From the NCBI GenBank assembly GCA_024763055.1, contig JANTGH010000003.1, positions 1-58,971 of the forward strand: a stretch of DNA of 58,971 nucleotides, given 5' to 3'. A program made the translations under genes and the position numbers. Below, piece after piece: positions 6,228 to 16,508 of this stretch. This stretch comes from Desulfobulbaceae bacterium. GTDB lineage: Bacteria > Desulfobacterota > Desulfobulbia > Desulfobulbales > Desulfobulbaceae. The notes beneath the pieces were generated by a model, which worked only from the letters and a program-made list of their open reading frames with translations, made no database searches and was not told the origin of the DNA. Numbering within the stretch: position 1 is the stretch's first letter; each line of letters starts with the position of its first letter.

Positions 6228-7085
6228 GTGAAAAAACAATCAGAGAACATCATACCTGAGCAGCGGCGGGCACTTGTTTTAGGGCATATTCAACGAGAAG
6301 GTGTTGTCAGCGTCCAGAAGGTTGCTCAGCTGATCGGTACTTCCGTTGCTACTGTCCGTCGTGATTTTGCTGAACTGGCCAATCGCGGCATGATTGTACG
6401 AATCCACGGCGGAGCCATGCTGGCTTTATCCCAGCAGACTACCTTTGAGCCCGACTACCACTTCACATCTAAAGTTTTTGTTTCGGAAAAAGAAGCCATA
6501 GGAAAGGTAGCAGCCGAATTGTTACAGCCCAGGCAGAGCGTCCTTTTTGATTCCAGTTCAACAGTTTTTCAGGCAGCCCGTTTTGTCGTTGAGCGAGGCA
6601 TTCCGATCCTCGCGCTGACTAATGACCTCAACATCGCCAACGCACTGGCTGATGCTCCCCGGGTAGAACTCAAAGTCACAGGCGGCTCCCTCCGGTCAGG
6701 ATCCTTTACCCTGGTTGGCGACCCGGGCCGGAGTTTCCTCGGAAGCCTGCATGTGGACGTCTGCTTTTTAGGGATACATGCAATTGCTCTTCGCCCCCAT
6801 CACAACAACTCAGGCAGTAATAAGGATCCCTGTGCAACCCTGAGCGATACGTCCCTTGAAGTTGTGGCAATGAAACGGCAGATGGTACGCGCCGCCAGGA
6901 AGAAAGTAGTTTTGGTTGATTCCAGCAAGTTCGGCATTTCAGCTTTTTGTGACGTGTGTACCCTGGATTACATCGACATCATTATCACTGACCGTAATAT
7001 TCAGCCCGATCAGCAACGATGCCTTGAGCGCAATGGGATACAGGTCATCATTGCCGATCAGGAAAAAGTCGAAAAAACAGCATGA
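6228..7085 (+). CDS. DeoR/GlpR-family transcriptional regulator
   Basis: Probable sugar-phosphate-responsive repressor of the catabolic genes that follow. Seen: N-terminal DeoR winged helix (residues about 12-65, with VSVQKVAQLIGTSVATVRRD and IVRIHGGAM), then a DeoR sensor domain of the ribose-5-phosphate-isomerase-like fold with FDSSSTV near residue 107, TGGSLR and VLVDSSKFG. Length 285 aa is slightly above the usual 250-260. The extra residues lie around HHNNSGSNKD in the sensor domain. It is transcribed in the same direction as the ABC transporter genes, 91 bp upstream. The effector is not predictable, but a phosphorylated pathway intermediate would fit the family. Confidence 0.88.
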   Translation: MKKQSENIIPEQRRALVLGHIQREGVVSVQKVAQLIGTSVATVRRDFAELANRGMIVRIHGGAMLALSQQTTFEPDYHFTSKVFVSEKEAIGKVAAELLQPRQSVLFDSSSTVFQAARFVVERGIPILALTNDLNIANALADAPRVELKVTGGSLRSGSFTLVGDPGRSFLGSLHVDVCFLGIHAIALRPHHNNSGSNKDPCATLSDTSLEVVAMKRQMVRAARKKVVLVDSSKFGISAFCDVCTLDYIDIIITDRNIQPDQQRCLERNGIQVIIADQEKVEKTA

Positions 7086-7176
7086 ATGAATTCGGTTCCT
7101 GGATGCATACCTAACGATACTATTCTTGGTTCCTGGTAATTTTCGGACAAGCGCCTCCAAGGCAAGGCAAAATTAG

Positions 7177-8262
7177 ATGGCATCAGTAACAATAGATTCA
7201 GTTAAAAAGCGTTTCGGCAGGAACGAGGTCCTGCACTGCATTGATCTTGCGATAGAGGACAGTGAGTTTGTTGTTCTGGTCGGCCCTTCGGGTTGCGGGA
7301 AATCAACCCTGTTACGGATGATTGCCGGTCTTGAGGAGGTTACCGAGGGGCAAATCAAAATCAATGATCAGGTCGTCAATAATATACCGCCCAAGAAACG
7401 GGATATTGCCATGGTCTTTCAGAATTACGCGCTCTATCCCCACATGAAAGTCTTTGACAACATGGCGTTCAGCCTGAAGCTGCAGAAAATGAGCGCCCGG
7501 AAAATCAGGGAGCAGGTAGAAAAGAGCGCAGAAATCCTCGGCCTGACGGATTATCTTGATCGGTATCCCAGGCAGCTCTCCGGCGGCCAGCGGCAGCGGG
7601 TGGCCATGGGCCGCGCTATAGTTCGGAGCCCAAAGGTTTTTCTGTTTGACGAACCGCTCAGCAACCTTGATGCCAAACTTCGCGTACAGATGCGAACGGA
7701 AATAAAAACCCTCCATTTTCAGTTATCCACCACCTCGATCTATGTGACCCATGATCAGATAGAGGCAATGACCATGGCCGACAGGATTGTGGTCATGCAT
7801 GATGGCTGGATTGAACAGGTGGGTACCCCGTTGGAATTGTATGATTTTCCGGCCAACCGATTTGTAGCCGGGTTTATAGGATCGCCGGCAATGAATTTTC
7901 TTGAGGGGACCATCGTCGGCGATAGCGGCGCATGCGCTGTGGAGCTTGCTGACTCCACCCGTCTGCCCCTGCCGGACTCCTGGACTGTCGAGCATGGGCG
8001 CAGGGTTGTTTATGGTATCCGGCCCGAACATTTGAGCTTAGCTCAGGAGAACGGCGGTATTGGGGCAAAGGTTGTTGTCGTGGAGCCGACAGGATCGGAG
8101 ACGCTTATTATCAGTGAAATAGCAGGCATGAAACTGCATGCGGTCTTTAGAGAGCGCCATAGCTTCAGACAAAAAGATACCATTTTTCTGCAGCCGACTC
8201 CTTCAAAAACTCATCTGTTTGATGCGCAAACAGGGAACGTCATAGAGGGTAATAGTATCTGA
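7177..8262 (+). CDS. ABC transporter ATP-binding protein, MalK/UgpC/MsmK type
   Basis: ATPase of a carbohydrate-type (CUT1) ABC importer, bound to the inner face of the membrane. Seen: Walker A GPSGCGKST (about residues 37-45), Q-loop, signature LSGGQRQR, Walker B VFLFDEPLSNLDAK, switch histidine YVTHDQ, and a C-terminal TOBE domain (about residues 235-361, with IRPEHL). Length 361 is typical. It is the first transport gene after the DeoR regulator and is followed by the binding protein and two permeases, so the importer is complete. Placing the ATPase gene before the binding-protein gene is common in this family. Confidence 0.95.
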   Translation: MASVTIDSVKKRFGRNEVLHCIDLAIEDSEFVVLVGPSGCGKSTLLRMIAGLEEVTEGQIKINDQVVNNIPPKKRDIAMVFQNYALYPHMKVFDNMAFSLKLQKMSARKIREQVEKSAEILGLTDYLDRYPRQLSGGQRQRVAMGRAIVRSPKVFLFDEPLSNLDAKLRVQMRTEIKTLHFQLSTTSIYVTHDQIEAMTMADRIVVMHDGWIEQVGTPLELYDFPANRFVAGFIGSPAMNFLEGTIVGDSGACAVELADSTRLPLPDSWTVEHGRRVVYGIRPEHLSLAQENGGIGAKVVVVEPTGSETLIISEIAGMKLHAVFRERHSFRQKDTIFLQPTPSKTHLFDAQTGNVIEGNSI

Positions 8263-8297
8263 CATTCCCTTCAGCCGGACCACGGATTGGCCCGGCA

Positions 8298-8331
8298 GAC
8301 ACTTTCATCCCTTCTGTCGGGTAAAAGTGTC
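8298..8331 (+). promoter_or_regulatory. Hairpin between ATPase and binding-protein genes
   Basis: GACACTTT (8298-8305) pairs with AAAGTGTC (8324-8331), and an inner CCC can pair with GGG. No T-run follows, so it is not a classic terminator. It lies 35 bp upstream of the binding-protein start, where it could stabilise or separate the abundant binding-protein transcript. Confidence 0.4.
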
Positions 8332-8366
8332 CAACCGGAAATCATCACCATCAAGAGGAGGAAGGT

Positions 8367-9671
8367 ATGAAAAAAGTGACAAGACGTGACATCATGAAAG
8401 CGGGTGCCGGTCTGGCTGTCCTCGGCGTAGCAGGCGACCTGGTGCTCCCGGCAGGTGCCGTCGCCACATCTTTTACTCCGGAAAAAGGCGCCGCCCTGCG
8501 CGTGCTGCGCTGGAAACGTTTTGTTCAGGGAGATGAAGACCTGTGGAACGCCAACACCAAAAAATTTACCGAATTGACAGGTGTAAAAGTCAAAATAGAT
8601 ACTGAATCATGGGAAGACGTGCGACCCAAAGCCGCAGTTGCCGCAAACATTGGCAGCGGCCCGGATATTATTATCGGCTGGTATGATGATCCCCACCAGT
8701 ATCCGGACAAGCTGGTCGACCTGACGGATCTTGCGGAAGGCCTGGGCAATGAACTTGGCGGCTGGTACCCGGTCTGTGAGAGTTACGGCAAGCGTGATGG
8801 CCGCTGGATTGCGCTCCCGCTTGGAGCGGCCGCCAACTGTCTTGTCTATCGTGAGAGCTGGATTAAGGAGGCCGGTTTTGACAAATTTCCAGCCGACACC
8901 GACGGATTCCTGAAACTCTGCCAGGCGCTCAAGAAAAATGGTCATCCCCCGGGATTTGCCCTTGGCAATGCAGTTGGCGACGGCAATATGTGGACCCATT
9001 GGCTGCTCTGGACCTTTGGCGGTAAAATGGTCAATGATAACAATGAGGTGGTGATAAATTCTCCGGAAACAGTCAAGGCCCTGGAGTACGCTAAAGAGCT
9101 GTACCAGACATTCATTCCGGGAACGGCATCCTGGCTGGACAGCCATAACAACAAGGCCTTCCTGTCCGACAAGATCAGTATCACCAATAATGGCATTTCC
9201 ATTTATTATGCCGCAAAAAGCAAGAACATGCCGATTGCCAAGGATATTAACCATTCCCCATTTCCGATTGGTCCGGTCGGACGCCCGACCGAGCTGCACC
9301 TGTTCACCCAGGCCATGGTCTTTAAATATTCCAAGTATCCAAATGCCGCAAAAGAGTACCTGCGCTTTATGTGGAGCAAAGAACAGTACGAACCGTGGCA
9401 GCAGGCCGCCATGGGCTATATTACCCAGCCGCTGAAAGCATACGAAGCCAATCCGATATGGACCTCGGATCCGAAACATACTCCGTATCGCGATACCCTG
9501 GCCAGAATGCTGCCCAACGGATATTCCGGAACACTGGGCTATGCCTCGGCTGCCGTGATGGCTGACTTTATTGTCGTCAACATGGTCGCGGAAGCTGCCA
9601 CCGGAGCTGTTTCTCCCAAAGCGGCCGCCGCCAAAGCGGAAAAAAGGGCTAAGCGGTATTACCGGGTGTAA
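8367..9671 (+). CDS. Extracellular solute-binding protein, Tat-exported (CUT1 family)
   Basis: Periplasmic receptor delivering substrate to the MalF/MalG-type permeases. Seen: an N-terminal twin-arginine signal (TRRDIMKAG followed by a hydrophobic stretch and an alanine-rich cleavage region near residues 30-35), then a cluster-B solute-binding fold of usual size (434 aa). Ribosome-binding site AGGAGGAAGG ends just before ATG 8367. Tat export means the protein folds in the cytoplasm first. The downstream enzymes (LarA-like, DUF1537, PdxA2, glycerate kinase) suggest a sugar acid as ligand rather than a neutral sugar, though CUT1 receptors mainly bind oligosaccharides, polyols or glycerophosphate-like ligands. 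Confidence 0.93.
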   Translation: MKKVTRRDIMKAGAGLAVLGVAGDLVLPAGAVATSFTPEKGAALRVLRWKRFVQGDEDLWNANTKKFTELTGVKVKIDTESWEDVRPKAAVAANIGSGPDIIIGWYDDPHQYPDKLVDLTDLAEGLGNELGGWYPVCESYGKRDGRWIALPLGAAANCLVYRESWIKEAGFDKFPADTDGFLKLCQALKKNGHPPGFALGNAVGDGNMWTHWLLWTFGGKMVNDNNEVVINSPETVKALEYAKELYQTFIPGTASWLDSHNNKAFLSDKISITNNGISIYYAAKSKNMPIAKDINHSPFPIGPVGRPTELHLFTQAMVFKYSKYPNAAKEYLRFMWSKEQYEPWQQAAMGYITQPLKAYEANPIWTSDPKHTPYRDTLARMLPNGYSGTLGYASAAVMADFIVVNMVAEAATGAVSPKAAAAKAEKRAKRYYRV

Positions 9672-9689
9672 AACTTCGTTTATTCCTGT

Positions 9690-9708
9690 GCCGGATACTT
9701 TATCCGGC
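9690..9708 (+). promoter_or_regulatory. Hairpin after the binding-protein gene
   Basis: GCCGGAT (9690-9696) pairs perfectly with ATCCGGC (9702-9708), with a 5-nt loop and no T-run. It sits 19 bp after the binding-protein stop and 50 bp before the first permease. Such intercistronic hairpins often protect binding-protein mRNA and reduce permease expression. Confidence 0.45.
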
Positions 9709-9757
9709 GCGGGCTGTTCGTGTGATTTTTTTCTACTGAACCCGATCTCCCATTGTT

Positions 9758-10702
9758 ATGGCGCAACAAACCCAATCTGCTGTGGTGCCGCCCAAAATTA
9801 CCTTCTGGGAACGCTTTGAAAACAACCGGAATCTACTCGGCCTGTTTTTGATGCTGCCCACCGCAGCACTGCTGGTGACCTTTCTCGCCTATCCCCTGGG
9901 GCTTGGCGTATGGCTTGGCTTAACCGATACGACCATTGGTCGGGAAGGAGTTTTTATAGGCCTGGAAAATTATAAATGGCTTTTTGCCGACAGTGTGTTC
10001 TGGCTTTCTGTTTTTAATACCTTTCTCTATACCACGGTTGCCAGCACCATTAAATTTGGCCTGGGTCTCTGGCTGGCCCTGATTCTCAATCAGCATATTC
10101 CATTCAAATCTCTTATCCGGGCCATCATCCTGCTGCCATGGATCGTTCCCACGGTGCTCTCCGCCGTTGCCTTCTGGTGGATTTACGATTCGCAGTTTTC
10201 CATTATCAGCTGGTCGCTGATGAAACTGGGATTCATCGATCAGTACATTAACTTTCTTGGCGAGAAGAACAATGCCCGGGCAGCAGTCATTATCGCCAAT
10301 ATCTGGCGCGGAGTTCCCTTTGTCGCCATTTCCCTGCTGGCGGGGCTGCAGACCATCTCCCCCATCCTGTATGAGGCGGCAACCCTTGACGGAGCCAATA
10401 AGTGGCAGCAGTTCAGGCATGTCACCCTGCCCATGCTGACGCCGATTATTTCCGTGGTCATGACCTTTTCCGTGCTTTTTACCTTCACGGATTTTCAGCT
10501 CATCTACGTCCTGACCCGGGGTGGACCTATCAATGCGACCCACCTGATGGCAACCCTCTCTTTTCAACGGGCCATTCCGGGCGGCCACCTGGGCGAAGGC
10601 GCTGCCATTGCTGTTGCCATGATTCCTTTCTTGCTTGCCGCTATTCTCTTTAGTTATTTTGGTCTGCAGCGCCGGGCCTGGCAGCAGGGAGGGGGCCACT
10701 GA
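9758..10702 (+). CDS. ABC transporter permease, MalF/UgpA type
   Basis: First inner-membrane subunit of the CUT1 importer. Seen: six hydrophobic segments in 314 residues and the EAA loop that contacts the ATPase (EAATLDGANKWQQF, about residues 206-219). The N-terminus is short (about 28 residues before the first segment), as in UgpA rather than MalF. It shares one base with the next permease (TGA/ATG at 10700-10704). No strong ribosome-binding site is visible before ATG 9758. Confidence 0.94.
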   Translation: MAQQTQSAVVPPKITFWERFENNRNLLGLFLMLPTAALLVTFLAYPLGLGVWLGLTDTTIGREGVFIGLENYKWLFADSVFWLSVFNTFLYTTVASTIKFGLGLWLALILNQHIPFKSLIRAIILLPWIVPTVLSAVAFWWIYDSQFSIISWSLMKLGFIDQYINFLGEKNNARAAVIIANIWRGVPFVAISLLAGLQTISPILYEAATLDGANKWQQFRHVTLPMLTPIISVVMTFSVLFTFTDFQLIYVLTRGGPINATHLMATLSFQRAIPGGHLGEGAAIAVAMIPFLLAAILFSYFGLQRRAWQQGGGH

Positions 10703-11589
10703 TGTTTGGACGGAAAAAGGAGAAAGAGACCGGCCGGGAGGGCATGGGCTATCTCAGTTCACTTCCCCTGCGGGTGGTCACTGTGTATGTTCCCCTGGTT
10801 GTTTTTATTATCCTGCTGCTCTTTCCATTTTACTGGATGGGTCTGACCACACTAAAACCCGATACCGAGCTGTTGGATTTAAACAGGTTTAATCCGTTCT
10901 GGGTCACCATGCCGACCCTCGCGCACATAAAAAAACTGCTGTTTCAAACCTCGTATCCCCGCTGGCTGTGGAACACCATGCTGATTTCGGTGCTGTCAAC
11001 CTTTATCTCTATTTTCTGCGCCGTCCTGGCCGCCTACGCCATTGAACGTCTGCGTTACAAGGGGTCACGCTTCATCGGCATGGCTATTTTCCTGGCCTAC
11101 CTGGTGCCGCCGTCCATTCTCTTTATTCCGCTGGCAACCATGGTGTTCAAGCTGGGCCTGTTTGATACCAGACTGGCGCTTATCCTGACCTATCCGACCT
11201 TCCTGATTCCCTTCTGTACCTGGCTGCTGATGGGATATTTCCGCTCCATCCCCTATGAAATTGAAGAGTGTGCCATGATTGACGGCGCCTCCCGTTTTCA
11301 GGTGCTGATCAAGATCATGCTGCCCCTTGCCGTTCCGGGCCTGATTTCGGCCGGTATCTTTGCCTTTACCCTTTCCTGGAACGAATTCATCTACGCCCTG
11401 ACCTTTATTTCATCATCGGAAAACAAGACCGTGGCGGTCGGGGTTATTACCGAGCTTGTCGACGGCGATGTGTACCACTGGGGTTCTCTGATGGCCGGAG
11501 CCCTGCTCGGTTCCCTGCCGGTGGCCATTCTCTACTCCTTTTTTGTTGAACATTATGTTTCCAGCATGACCGGAGCGGTGAAAGAGTAA
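10702..11589 (+). CDS. ABC transporter permease, MalG/UgpE type
   Basis: Second inner-membrane subunit of the importer. Seen: six hydrophobic segments in 295 residues and an EAA-like loop in which alanine is partly replaced (EECAMIDGASRFQVL, about residues 190-204). A charged cytoplasmic start (FGRKKEKETG) precedes the first segment. Start and stop overlap with the upstream permease indicates translational coupling. The catabolic enzymes begin 27 bp after its stop, which supports one long transcript. Confidence 0.94.
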   Translation: MFGRKKEKETGREGMGYLSSLPLRVVTVYVPLVVFIILLLFPFYWMGLTTLKPDTELLDLNRFNPFWVTMPTLAHIKKLLFQTSYPRWLWNTMLISVLSTFISIFCAVLAAYAIERLRYKGSRFIGMAIFLAYLVPPSILFIPLATMVFKLGLFDTRLALILTYPTFLIPFCTWLLMGYFRSIPYEIEECAMIDGASRFQVLIKIMLPLAVPGLISAGIFAFTLSWNEFIYALTFISSSENKTVAVGVITELVDGDVYHWGSLMAGALLGSLPVAILYSFFVEHYVSSMTGAVKE

Positions 11590-11616
11590 TGTCGATTTCT
11601 ATTCGTTGAGGCGGAT

Positions 11617-12894
11617 ATGGCAAAAGTTACAATACCATTTGACGGCAAGCCCCTCCGGTTCCAGGTGCCGGATGCAAATCTGATCGAGGTGCTCAGCCCT
11701 GCCCGATCCCGGCCGCTTATCCGTCTTGGGAAGGAAATAGAAAAAGCCCTGGATAACCCGATTGGCCAGAAACCGCTGCAGGATTGGGTCAGGCCGACGG
11801 ACAGGGTCATTCTAATCAGTGATGACAACACGCGCCTGACCCCTGCTGACCGTATCATCCCGCCCATGCTCGACAGGTTGAATGCGGCAGGCGTTGCCGA
11901 TGAGAACATCTCCTGCATTATGGCCCTGGGAACCCACAGATACATGTGCCGGGAAGAGTTGATCGCCAAGGTCGGGCCTGGTGTGCTTGAGCGGATCAGA
12001 GTTTTTAATCATGAATGGCGGGATCCGGCCGCCCTGGTTGATCTTGGTGTTTCACGGCACGGCACGCCTCTTCTGATAAATCGGGCGGTTGTGGAAGCCG
12101 ATGTGGTTATCGGCCTCGGGGCCATTGTCCCGCATCATATCCCTGGATTTTCCGGTTCGTCCAAGATTATTCAGCCTGGTGTCAGCGGGGCCGGAACAAC
12201 GGCGCAGACCCATATCCTCTCCTGTGAAAGCGGAGGCGATTCTTTTCTTGGCATCCACGACAATCCGGTTCGCAGCGATATGGATGATATTGCCGACCGG
12301 GTGGGAATGTCGACAATTTTTAATGTTGTCCTCGACAGCGACGGCAGGGTGTGCGGCCTGTTTTTCGGCGAGATGCGGGCCAGCTATCGCCAGGGGATTG
12401 AGCTGGCACGCAGGATCTACGGAGTGCCCTATTGTGAAACACCGGATATTGTTCTGGCCAACTCCCATCCCTGCAATCTCGATTTCTGGCAATCGCACAA
12501 GTCACTTTACCCGGCCCAGCGTATGATCAAAAAGGGCGGCTCAATCATCTGCTGTACTCCGGCTCCGGAGGGGGTGAGTCCGGTGCACACGGAACTGCTT
12601 TCTTTTACGTCTTGGTCATCGGCGAAAATCAAAGAGGCCTACCATGCGGGAGAGCTGAAAAACGGTGTTGCCTGCGCCCTGGCCATTGCCTGGGCAATGG
12701 TTCGAGAAAAGGCTGAAATAATTACCGTTTCTGAGGGAATATCACCAGAAGAAAAAGAGGCGCTCGGACATATTCATGCGCCGGATATTGGTTCTGCCCT
12801 CAAAATTGCTTTCGACCATCAAGGGACGGCAGCGCGCCTGACAGTCCTGACCCATGCCCCTGATATGCTGCCCATCCATACCCCTGCCCGGTGA
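11617..12894 (+). CDS. LarA-family nickel-dependent racemase/epimerase (DUF2088)
   Basis: Cytoplasmic 2-hydroxyacid racemase or epimerase acting by hydride transfer through a nickel-pincer nucleotide. Seen at positions matching characterised lactate racemase: SDDNTR (Arg73), GTHR (His107), PHHIPGF (His173/174), Lys183 for covalent cofactor attachment, and His199. Catalytic histidines and cofactor lysine are all present in a protein of the usual length (425 aa). The next genes phosphorylate and oxidise four-carbon sugar acids and phosphorylate glycerate. C2 epimerisation of a tetronate, or racemisation of glycerate, is therefore more likely than lactate racemisation; this is inference. The cofactor genes larB, larC and larE are not in this window. 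The stop overlaps the next start by 4 bp. Confidence 0.88.
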   Translation: MAKVTIPFDGKPLRFQVPDANLIEVLSPARSRPLIRLGKEIEKALDNPIGQKPLQDWVRPTDRVILISDDNTRLTPADRIIPPMLDRLNAAGVADENISCIMALGTHRYMCREELIAKVGPGVLERIRVFNHEWRDPAALVDLGVSRHGTPLLINRAVVEADVVIGLGAIVPHHIPGFSGSSKIIQPGVSGAGTTAQTHILSCESGGDSFLGIHDNPVRSDMDDIADRVGMSTIFNVVLDSDGRVCGLFFGEMRASYRQGIELARRIYGVPYCETPDIVLANSHPCNLDFWQSHKSLYPAQRMIKKGGSIICCTPAPEGVSPVHTELLSFTSWSSAKIKEAYHAGELKNGVACALAIAWAMVREKAEIITVSEGISPEEKEALGHIHAPDIGSALKIAFDHQGTAARLTVLTHAPDMLPIHTPAR

Positions 12895-14174
12895 TGCCGA
12901 ATCTTGCCTTTAGAGAATTGATCGTTGTGCTGGCGGACGACCTGACCGGGGCCGCAGATACCGGTGTCCGGTTTCTACGGGCAGATCGTCCCGCCTGTCT
13001 GCTGGCGTTCAGTGAGCTTGATAATGTCCCTCTGGAAAAAGCGGATGTTCTTTCCGTATACACCAGAAGCAGAGCTCTGGACGGAAAAATCGCTGCGGAA
13101 CGAGTGGGCGGAACGGTTGAAAAATTGCAGTCTTTAAGACCAGCGTTGATCTATAAGAAGCTGGATTCCTGCATACGGGGCAATGTTGCCCGGGAGCTTG
13201 ACGCGATTCTGGAAAGACTGCCGATCCAGGCCTGTTTTATCGCCCCTGCCTTCCCGGAACAGGGGCGCACAACAGTACACGGCATTCATTTTCTCCATGG
13301 TGTCCCGGTTGCAGAGACGGAAATGGCCCGGGACCCGATAACTCCGGTTGCCCAGTCGGACCTGGCCCGTTTTCTTGCAGCAGAAAGTTTCTATCAGGTT
13401 GGCCGGATCGATATTGATGACTATGACCAGGGCCGGGAATTTGTTCGAAACAGAATTGCAACTCTGCTTGGACAGGGATGCCGCTCTATAATTTTTGACG
13501 CTGCCCATCAGGAGCATCTGAACCTGGTGGCGGAGCTCGGACTTTCTTTTTTCACTGACTGTATTTTTGCCGGCTCTGCCGGCCTGGCGGCCGGGGTAGC
13601 CAAAAAACTCGGGCGTAGTCGTCCCGCACCATTGCATGCCGGGAAGACTTCAGGAGGAAATAATACAAAAATACTCTATCTGTGCGGCACAGCCTCGGAA
13701 AAAACCGCCGAGCAGGTACAACAACTGCTTGCCGCAGGCAATTGCAGTGAACTGGTTCTTGATGCTGAAACACTTGCCGGGCTTGCGCAGCAACAGCACG
13801 GGCGATTAGCCTCTGATGCGGCAAAACTTCTCAAATCAGGACCGCTGGTTATTCATATTTCCGCGCGGCCGGCAAAGGGCTTTTCTGCAGACCCTGAAAA
13901 AGTGCTTCGGGGTCTTACCCGTTTAACCTGTACACTGCTCAACCTGGAGCAGCTCTCCTGTATTTTCCTTTCCGGAGGGGACACGGCGGATGCGGTGCTG
14001 CAGGCAACAGGCGTGCAATATATCCATCTTGATCAGGAGTTGCTTTCCGGAATCGTTCTGGGACGCTGCTTTGGCGGGATGCTTGATCAGGTACCAGTCG
14101 TGACCAAGGGTGGCAGCTTTGGTACTCCGGACATTTTATTGCAGGTTTCCGGCCACCTTGAAAAAGTTATTTAA
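12891..14174 (+). CDS. Four-carbon acid sugar kinase (DUF1537; DtnK/OtnK-like)
   Basis: ATP-dependent kinase that phosphorylates tetronates such as D-threonate or D-erythronate at the 4-position, in the cytoplasm. Seen: N-terminal DUF1537 domain opening with VVLADDLTGAADTGVRF, KKLDSCIRGNVARE near residue 90, and a C-terminal nucleotide-binding domain with FLSGGDTADAVL near 360 and a closing KGGSFG motif. Length 427 is typical. It overlaps the LarA-like gene by ATGA and is followed 13 bp later by pdxA2. In characterised pathways this pair turns D-threonate into dihydroxyacetone phosphate and CO2. Substrate stereochemistry cannot be read from sequence. Confidence 0.92.
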   Translation: MMPNLAFRELIVVLADDLTGAADTGVRFLRADRPACLLAFSELDNVPLEKADVLSVYTRSRALDGKIAAERVGGTVEKLQSLRPALIYKKLDSCIRGNVARELDAILERLPIQACFIAPAFPEQGRTTVHGIHFLHGVPVAETEMARDPITPVAQSDLARFLAAESFYQVGRIDIDDYDQGREFVRNRIATLLGQGCRSIIFDAAHQEHLNLVAELGLSFFTDCIFAGSAGLAAGVAKKLGRSRPAPLHAGKTSGGNNTKILYLCGTASEKTAEQVQQLLAAGNCSELVLDAETLAGLAQQQHGRLASDAAKLLKSGPLVIHISARPAKGFSADPEKVLRGLTRLTCTLLNLEQLSCIFLSGGDTADAVLQATGVQYIHLDQELLSGIVLGRCFGGMLDQVPVVTKGGSFGTPDILLQVSGHLEKVI

Positions 14175-14187
14175 AATGAGGGCCCAG

Positions 14188-15225
14188 ATGACAGATAAAA
14201 AGCCTCTGCTCGGGATTACCATTGGCGATCCCGGCGGCATCGGCCCTGAGGTATCGGTAAAGGCCTTAGGCGATGAACAGATTTTCCAGGTATGCCGTCC
14301 TCTGCTGATCGGAGATTCCGAAATCATTGCCGATGCGCTCGGGTTCTGCCGACTGGATGCAACCGTCCACAGTTGCTCTGTTCCCGAGCAGGGAGTATAT
14401 CGTTTAGGGACCATTGATGTCCTTGATCTCGGGAATATGCCCCTTAAACAACGTCGACATAAGATGATCACCGCCGACCAGGGCAGGGCCTCTTTTGAGT
14501 ATGTGGCAAAAGCCATAGAGCTTGCCATGGCAGGACAAATTGACGGTACGGTAACGGGGCCTATCAGCAAGGAGGCGATCAATGGTGCCGGGTATCATTA
14601 TGCGGGACATACCGAAATTTATGGTTCCCTGACCGACACCGTTGACTATGCCATGATGCTTGTTGACAATGGTTTCCGAGTGGTTCATGTCTCCACCCAT
14701 GTCAGCCTGCGCGAGGCCTGTGACAGAGTGAAAAAGGATCGCATCACTACGGTGATCAATTTAACCCATTCCGCCGTCCGGCAGATGGGTGTTTCTTCAC
14801 CCTCGATTGCCGTTGCCGGCTTAAACCCCCACTGTGGCGAAGGCGGGATGTTTGGTGATGAAGAAATGCGGGAAATCCTGCCAGCCGTGCGGGAGGCAAA
14901 TGCACGCGGACTTACTGTTGAAGGGCCGATCCCGGCGGACACCGTATTTGTTAAAATGCGGGGAGGAATGTTTGACGCAGTCGTGGTCATGTATCATGAC
15001 CAGGGCCATATTCCGGCAAAACTGGTGGGGTTTCAGTATAATGACCGAACAAAGAGCTGGGACAGCATGTCCGGGGTCAATGTCACCCTGGGGCTGCCGA
15101 TCATTCGCACCTCGGTGGATCACGGCACCGCCTTTGACAAGGCCGGGGACAACTGCGCCAATCCACAGTCCATGGTTGAGGCCATAAAACTGGCGGCTGT
15201 GCTGGCTGCCGCAGGAGTGTCGTAG
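14188..15225 (+). CDS. pdxA2: PdxA2-type 4-phosphotetronate dehydrogenase (decarboxylating)
   Basis: NAD-dependent oxidation of 4-phospho-D-threonate (or D-erythronate) with decarboxylation to dihydroxyacetone phosphate. Seen: PdxA fold with GITIGDPGGIGPE near the start, TGPISKEAI, the metal-binding histidines in YAGHTE, THVS and YHDQGH, and GLPIIRTSVDHGTAFD at the C-terminus. I start it at ATG 14188, preceded by GAGGG at correct spacing (345 aa). ATG 14176 is in frame 12 bp upstream but lacks this signal. Pairing with a DUF1537 kinase argues for catabolism rather than pyridoxal-phosphate synthesis. Confidence 0.92.
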   Translation: MTDKKPLLGITIGDPGGIGPEVSVKALGDEQIFQVCRPLLIGDSEIIADALGFCRLDATVHSCSVPEQGVYRLGTIDVLDLGNMPLKQRRHKMITADQGRASFEYVAKAIELAMAGQIDGTVTGPISKEAINGAGYHYAGHTEIYGSLTDTVDYAMMLVDNGFRVVHVSTHVSLREACDRVKKDRITTVINLTHSAVRQMGVSSPSIAVAGLNPHCGEGGMFGDEEMREILPAVREANARGLTVEGPIPADTVFVKMRGGMFDAVVVMYHDQGHIPAKLVGFQYNDRTKSWDSMSGVNVTLGLPIIRTSVDHGTAFDKAGDNCANPQSMVEAIKLAAVLAAAGVS

Positions 15226-15239
15226 GATCCTGTCGGCCA

Positions 15240-16508
15240 ATGGAGAATACAAAGGCAACACAACTTCTGCTCGACTTGTTTCAGGCGGCCGTCCAGGCTG
15301 CACATCCGGCAAACTGTCTGCCGTCCAGGCTTCCCGAGCCGGGAATGCGGACGATTGTGATCGGGGCGGGCAAGGGGTCCGCCATGATGGCCCATGAGCT
15401 GGAAAAACGGTGGCCGGGTGCGCTGGAAGGGATTGTGGTCACCCGCTATGGGCATGCTGTGCCATGTAGAAATATTGAGATTATCGAGGCCGGACACCCA
15501 TTGCCTGATGAGAACAGCGTCCGGGCCGCGGACAGGATACTGAAGCTGGTTAGAGGCCTTGGCCGTGAAGATCTGGTTATTGCCCTGATCTCCGGCGGCG
15601 GGTCGGCGCTTTTATGCCTGCCTCCCGAGGGAATATCACTTGCCGAAAAAATGGCGGTGAATTCGGACCTGCTGAAAAGCGGCGCCACTATCAGTGAAAT
15701 GAACTGCGTGCGCAAGCATATCTCTGCCATCAAGGGCGGGCGTCTGGCTGCAGCCATTGCCCCGGCCCGGCTCGTGACCTGGTTGATCTCGGATGTGCCC
15801 GGGGATGATCCGGCAATGATCGCCTCCGGTCCTACTGTAGCTGATGATACCAGCGTGGAAACCGCCCTGCGAATTATCGGGCAATACCGGATTCCGCTCT
15901 CTGATGGCCTGCGCACCTATCTCGCCGGTGGGCAGGCTGTCACGCCGAAAAAAAACAACCATGTTTTCGACAATACGCTCACCAGGATCATTGCCTCGCC
16001 CATGCAGAGTTTACAGGCAGCAGAGCGGCTGGCCCGACAGCAGGGCTTTACCGTCTTGTGTCTTGGGGATGCCCTGGAAGGAGAGGCACGGGAAGTAGGC
16101 CGGGTCCATGCCGGAGTGGCCAGGTCCATTGCCCGGTTTGGTATTCCCGTTACATCGCCGGCAATACTGTTAAGCGGCGGGGAAGTTACTGTTACCTTGA
16201 CAGGAGAAGATGCGGGACGTGGCGGTCCCAATCAGGAATTTCTCTTAGGCCTTGCCCTGGAGCTGGATTCTCATATCGGTATCCATGCCCTTGCCTGCGA
16301 TACCGATGGCATGGATGGCAGTGAGCCGGTTGCCGGCGCGATAATTCATCCGGATACCCTGAAACGGGCAGCAATACACCAGCTTTCCATCCGGGACGCT
16401 CTCAAAACCCATAACAGCTATAAATTTTTTAAAGAGCTGGCCGACACAGTCGAAACCGGCCCGACCTATACCAATATCAATGATTTCAGGGCAATACTCC
16501 TAAAATAG
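15240..16508 (+). CDS. Glycerate 2-kinase (GckA/TtuD, MOFRL family)
   Basis: ATP-dependent phosphorylation of D-glycerate to 2-phosphoglycerate, feeding lower glycolysis. Seen: N-terminal Rossmann-like domain with GAGKGSAMMAHELE, VVTRYGH and LISGGGSALL (about residues 115-125), NCVRKHISAIKGG, and a C-terminal MOFRL domain with LLSGGEVTVT and GGPNQEF. Length 422 is normal. It is the last gene of the catabolic block, 14 bp after pdxA2. Its presence means the operon can also handle a three-carbon acid, either imported or derived from the tetronate route. That is a reason to consider glycerate racemisation as the LarA-like enzyme's job. Confidence 0.92.
   Translation: MENTKATQLLLDLFQAAVQAAHPANCLPSRLPEPGMRTIVIGAGKGSAMMAHELEKRWPGALEGIVVTRYGHAVPCRNIEIIEAGHPLPDENSVRAADRILKLVRGLGREDLVIALISGGGSALLCLPPEGISLAEKMAVNSDLLKSGATISEMNCVRKHISAIKGGRLAAAIAPARLVTWLISDVPGDDPAMIASGPTVADDTSVETALRIIGQYRIPLSDGLRTYLAGGQAVTPKKNNHVFDNTLTRIIASPMQSLQAAERLARQQGFTVLCLGDALEGEAREVGRVHAGVARSIARFGIPVTSPAILLSGGEVTVTLTGEDAGRGGPNQEFLLGLALELDSHIGIHALACDTDGMDGSEPVAGAIIHPDTLKRAAIHQLSIRDALKTHNSYKFFKELADTVETGPTYTNINDFRAILLK

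Follow-up and report, generated by a model that had tools for sequence, protein, structure and literature searches.

A LarA homologue encoded by a member of the Desulfobulbaceae is probably a tetronate C2 epimerase of the nickel-pincer type, with D-erythronate and D-threonate as its likeliest substrates, and would feed a co-encoded DUF1537 kinase and PdxA2-type dehydrogenase leading to DHAP. Gene order, residues, fold, cofactor genes and clade-wide linkage were observed, and from these we infer the substrate, stereochemistry and direction of the reaction. An epimerase of this kind had been proposed in a preliminary description of the same DNA and is upheld here as the best reading, supported by clade linkage, the presence of cofactor genes and a specific pocket signature.

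Gene organisation and cofactor genes

The window, meaning the whole stretch of DNA that was analysed (58,971 bp), corresponds to one entire contig; the draft genome it comes from totals 4.17 Mb. A run of genes on the forward strand (6228-16508) comprises a DeoR regulator, four ABC-transporter genes, the LarA homologue, a DUF1537 kinase, PdxA2 and a glycerate 2-kinase (Table 1). The last four are real genes, tightly spaced on one strand, and their domain matches and coordinates confirm the order LarA, DUF1537, PdxA2 reported earlier. The 4 bp overlap described between LarA and the kinase holds if the latter starts at GTG 12891, and becomes 1 bp (TGATG) if ATG 12894 is used. A DeoR homologue also heads the cluster in five related loci (L061, L063, L074, L075, L087), and a scan for consensus promoters and terminators gave results at about chance level and was set aside. 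The host genome holds a single copy each of LarA and DUF1537. It also encodes LarB, LarC and LarE, the cofactor genes whose presence the preliminary description had proposed to check, each matching its profile above the curated cut-off.

Table 1. Features of the LarA gene cluster in the window and cofactor genes elsewhere in the genome
Feature	Position	Strand	Evidence
DeoR-family regulator	6228..7085	+	DeoRC 4.1e-37, HTH_DeoR 1.6e-15
UgpC-type ABC transporter ATPase	7177..8262	+	NF008653 507 bits, cut-off 432 exceeded
Sugar-type ABC solute-binding protein	8367..9671	+	SBP_bac_8 7.8e-34
ABC permease 1	9758..10702	+	BPD_transp_1 1.4e-14
ABC permease 2	10702..11589	+	BPD_transp_1 5.3e-16
LarA homologue, predicted tetronate C2 epimerase	11617..12894	+	Lar_N 6.8e-55, residues, clade, model
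DUF1537 kinase	12891..14174	+	SBD_N 4e-58, NBD_C 5.6e-22; start GTG 12891 or ATG 12894
PdxA2-type dehydrogenase	14176..15225	+	PdxA 1.9e-103; most likely start ATG 14176 or 14188
Glycerate 2-kinase (DUF4147/MOFRL)	15240..16508	+	DUF4147 2.8e-84, MOFRL 1.8e-34
LarB	C123:4760-5389		Profile match above curated cut-off
LarC	C89:4942-6066		Profile match above curated cut-off
LarE	C47:935-1702		Profile match above curated cut-off

Residues and fold of the LarA homologue

The LarA gene is complete and its product aligns with LarA structures over its full length, scoring 185.9 bits for the LarA superfamily domain Lar_N (cut-off 23.3) and 24.7 for LarA_C, slightly below the cut-off of 25. All seven LarA residues compared are present, the catalytic D72, H108, H174 and K298 as D70, H107, H173 and K295, and the cofactor residues R75, K184 and H200 as R73, K183 and H199. 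Arg73, His107, Lys183 and His199 of the earlier cofactor-residue list therefore stand, and His174 does not, as the second catalytic histidine is H173; its neighbour H174 occupies the first substrate-recognition position and is nearly invariant across the clade described below. An AlphaFold model (pLDDT 92.9) has as its closest fold the Isosphaera LarA with bound substrate (9eid; TM 0.93, Foldseek E 2.4e-39). Lactate racemase LarA and Isosphaera LarA (5huq, 9eid) share with the window protein the fold (TM 0.87-0.93), the catalytic and cofactor residues and the NPN cofactor genes, but they are only about 26-28% identical to it, stand in another gene context and carry F, F, V, W, T at the substrate positions where the window protein has H, I, H, A, L. 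Nor did the protein reach the cut-offs of the curated NCBIfam models for lactate racemase (242.6 bits, cut-off 460), malate racemase (280.7, cut-off 500) or LarAH10 (264.2, cut-off 540).

A LarA clade with its own pocket signature

Scanning species genomes for relatives of the window LarA yielded 80 loci, and in a tree with out-clade LarAs the protein falls in a monophyletic clade of 76 tips (support 1.0, no intruders) that spans several phyla. At LarA positions 175, 176, 294, 297, 358 and 359 the clade has, with very few exceptions, H, I, W, H, A/S and L (abbreviated H-I / W-Q-H-K / A-L), and many of the residues diagnostic of the clade map onto published substrate positions (175, 176, 297, 355 and 359). 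The corresponding sets are F, F, W, E/Q in the lactate group, E, V, A, H in the gluconate group and H/Q and K in the malate group, and none of the assayed LarA groups described in the literature we found matches that of the clade, for which we likewise found no published assay of any member. Comparable in predicted chemistry are the D-gluconate 2-epimerases GntE1/GntE2 (4nar), which epimerise a sugar acid at C2 and share Trp 294 and Ala 358 with the window LarA. They differ from it in the loop (E-V/S versus H-I), at position 359 (H versus L), in overall sequence (19% identity to 4nar) and in lacking its C4 pathway context, and the gluconate signature of E, V, A, H at 175, 176, 358 and 359 is replaced in the window LarA by H, I, A, L. 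Judged from the alignment, the clade differs from malate racemases in having no Lys or Arg at the substrate-recognition positions, so that a predicted substrate with a second carboxylate or a phosphate is disfavoured. Ala/Ser in place of Trp358 would make room and suggests a larger substrate.

A neighbouring LarA group (L045-L050, L055-L058, L138) resembles gluconate epimerases in its substrate positions, which read R-V / W / A-H, and has no DUF1537 or PdxA2 nearby. Viral contigs held no relative of the window LarA and plasmids only distant LarAs, the best of which (Pusillibacter, 33.5%) has pyrimidine/ornithine-type neighbours and no DUF1537.

Linkage to DUF1537 and PdxA2

Neighbouring genes were called by tblastn within 4.5 kb of LarA in 79 clade and 15 out-clade loci. 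The adjacency of DUF2088 and DUF1537 genes, raised as a question in the preliminary description, proved frequent within the clade, with DUF1537 found in 40 of the 79 clade loci and none of those outside the clade. PdxA2 occurs in 46 clade loci and, like DUF1537, always on the LarA strand; one or both are present in 50, or 58 once IlvD is counted, and in 43 of the 57 loci whose two flanks each extend for 3 kb. Several of the remaining loci end at contig edges. Neither gene was found near an out-clade LarA (0/15; Fisher 7e-8, a value that overstates independence as the loci are related to each other). The pairing is seen in Desulfobacterota, Bacillota (Sporomusa/Pelosinus/Anaerospora/Halanaerobium), Spirochaetes and Chloroflexi, with varying transporters and gene orders.

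In a phylum sample of 395 genomes, Desulfobacterales included, DUF1537 was present in only 31 genomes but in five of the six with a clade LarA (window genome counted, p = 1e-5); one contig of this sample (genome G105) is the above-mentioned locus L061. Among the genomes with a clade LarA, G241 has an unlinked LarA and a separate TRAP-DUF1537-PdxA2 cluster elsewhere, indicating that the pairing holds at the genome level too. Linkage of LarA, DUF1537 and PdxA2 is thus a property of the clade across several phyla and not accidental. LarA lies directly beside PdxA2 with no nearby DUF1537 in nine loci (L064, L065, L069, L077, L079, L089, L106, L113, L121), whose kinase may be encoded elsewhere or belong to another family, and some clade loci have neither gene.

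Other neighbours were also noted. In 12 Chloroflexi loci (L123-L127, L129, L131, L132, L134-L136, L139) the gene immediately upstream of the clade LarA belongs to the fumarylacetoacetate-hydrolase (FAH) family. In two Moorella loci (L102, L105), which have no DUF1537 or PdxA2, the clade LarA retains the pocket signature and adjoins genes for two short-chain dehydrogenases, a protein of the URO-D family and an E1/E2 2-oxoacid dehydrogenase.

Predicted pathway

D-erythronate and D-threonate differ only at C2, and the reaction of assayed LarA enzymes is inversion at C2. Pairs of a DUF1537 kinase and PdxA2 reportedly convert D-threonate into DHAP (Zhang et al. 2016, cited in PMC10580937 and PMC12540250), which together with the position of the inversion makes a tetronate C2 epimerase the most economical reading. 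We posit that a tetronate (2,3,4-trihydroxybutanoate) would be taken up and then inverted at C2 by the NPN-dependent LarA homologue, which would most probably turn D-erythronate (2R,3R) and D-threonate (2S,3R) into each other. The enzyme would rely on the proton-coupled hydride transfer of its family, in which a catalytic His takes the proton of the 2-OH group while the hydride passes from C2 to the cofactor and is returned to the opposite face. The DUF1537 kinase would then phosphorylate D-threonate at O4, and PdxA2 would oxidise C3 with loss of CO2 to give DHAP. At C3, where PdxA-type enzymes act, 4-phosphohydroxy-L-threonine and D-threonate have the same configuration. As this configuration is common to D-erythronate and D-threonate, these two are the likeliest pair.

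The window kinase has both DUF1537 kinase domains, and the best of three curated models is that for D-threonate kinase (NF047819, 220 bits, cut-off 450; 146 bits for 3-oxo-tetronate kinase). All 18 DUF1537 kinases tested matched the D-threonate kinase model, the window kinase itself below the cut-off. PdxA2 belongs to the PdxA family and is encoded together with the DUF1537 kinase; it has the PDB relatives 4jqp, 6e85 (D-threonate 4-phosphate dehydrogenase) and 2hi1, and scores 289 bits against the D-threonate 4-phosphate dehydrogenase model PRK03371, short of its cut-off of 583. These sub-threshold scores count against the tetronate reading, as do the loci with PdxA2 only or with neither gene. 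A further point against it is that assayed lactate racemases handle 4-deoxy-threonate/erythronate only weakly (PMC11770544), although tetronates proper are absent from the reported reactions. In the literature searched we found no paper pairing DUF2088 with DUF1537, nor one pairing lactate racemase with PdxA2, though supplementary material such as that of the 2020 LarA paper may mention this gene context; the sole paper found with both nickel-pincer and erythronate deals with 4-deoxy compounds.

Alternative substrates and fates

It is unlikely, though worth weighing, that the tetronate belongs to the L series (L-threonate/L-erythronate) or that the epimer goes to a dehydratase instead of the kinase. 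PdxA-type enzymes expect the C3 configuration of D-threonate, which disfavours the L series, even though L-threonate does arise from ascorbate breakdown (PMC12540250). A dehydratase would fit the Syntrophaceae loci L088 and L092-L097, where LarA adjoins IlvD/EDD without DUF1537 or PdxA2, but linkage to the kinase or PdxA2 is far commoner than linkage to IlvD (50 versus 16 of 79 loci).

We also doubt that the substrate is a different 2-hydroxy acid, such as a branched or longer sugar acid degraded by several routes. Genes for PanB paralogues, IlvD, FAH-family proteins and 2-oxoacid dehydrogenases near some clade members would accord with such diversity, whereas the pocket signature is constant across the clade and the commonest partners remain DUF1537 and PdxA2, whose known substrates are four-carbon acids.

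Epimerisation one step later, on the tetronate 4-phosphate, appears improbable. Since LarA is co-encoded with both enzymes, gene order does not reveal whether it acts before or after the kinase, and the nine loci with PdxA2 alone would suit this order of reactions, yet a pocket without Lys/Arg does not favour a phosphate and the LarA substrates that we found reported are unphosphorylated.

Similarly improbable is glycerate racemisation, which the preliminary description had considered the main alternative and in which L-/D-glycerate would serve the glycerate 2-kinase, DUF1537 and PdxA2 forming a distinct pathway that shares the operon: the kinase gene lies 14 bp behind pdxA2 in the same run and glycerate is a good substrate for some enzymes of the LarA family (PMC11770544), but this reading has lost weight as no glycerate kinase was found near LarA in any of the 79 clade loci, and the pocket (H, I, A, L versus F, F, W, E/Q in the glycerate/lactate group) has the Trp358 to Ala/Ser change that suggests a larger substrate.

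A possible second route

Within 4.5 kb of a clade LarA, PanB paralogues occur in 15 and IlvD/EDD dehydratases in 16 of the 79 loci, and a second, LarAH10-type LarA in nine (14 within the loci as a whole). Varying combinations of PanB, IlvD/EDD, a TRAP transporter and the LarAH10-type LarA were seen in L063, L067, L072-L076, L082, L083, L087, L093-L097, L108 and L110. Most genomes checked have several PanB and IlvD copies, and the IlvD and PanB of L067 also exceed the cut-offs of biosynthetic models. PanB-IlvD pairs without a clade LarA were found in L143-L148, and an IlvD-DUF1537-PdxA2 cluster without LarA in L153 (genome G058).

IlvD-family enzymes usually require C2-R and D-threonate kinase requires C2-S, and because of these opposite needs an epimerase between the two makes sense. 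The clusters with PanB, IlvD, TRAP and LarAH10 look like an undescribed one-carbon-releasing sugar-acid route, in which IlvD would convert a tetronate to 4-hydroxy-2-oxobutanoate and PanB, running in reverse, would yield pyruvate and methylene-tetrahydrofolate. E. coli PanB joins various 2-oxoacids to formaldehyde in an aldol step, and in that study the reverse reaction had to be suppressed (PMC10127515). Tentatively, the two routes may form an anaerobic system using all tetronate stereoisomers, in which the clade LarA and the LarAH10-type LarA would sort C2 epimers between kinase/PdxA2, leading to DHAP, and IlvD/PanB, leading to pyruvate and to methylene-tetrahydrofolate that would enter the Wood-Ljungdahl pathway. 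Pantoate breakdown, a role for LarA that PanB brought to mind, was rejected as the main reading because PdxA2 chemistry requires a C3 hydroxyl, which pantoate lacks.

Relation to known pathways and implications

The window shares the DUF1537 kinase and PdxA2 pair with the D-threonate pathway DtnK-PdxA2, from which it differs by the LarA homologue added in front and by a kinase and PdxA2 that score below the curated cut-offs. Substrate class and end product, DHAP, would be those of the D-erythronate pathway DenD-OtnI-OtnK-OtnC; that pathway uses a two-step oxidation and isomerisation and another kinase subfamily, whereas a single epimerisation is proposed here. Cultured holders of the clade LarA include Desulfofustis glycolicus (L074), Sporomusa silvacetica (L091), Pelosinus propionicus and Halanaerobium congolense.

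The PanB-containing loci suggest that PanB has a second use, in the breakdown of sugar acids, which seems not to have been described. If the tetronate prediction is true, C2 epimerisation of tetronates would join the reactions of the nickel-pincer cofactor, a widespread LarA clade would gain a functional assignment, and anaerobes would have a one-step pathway link from erythronate to D-threonate.
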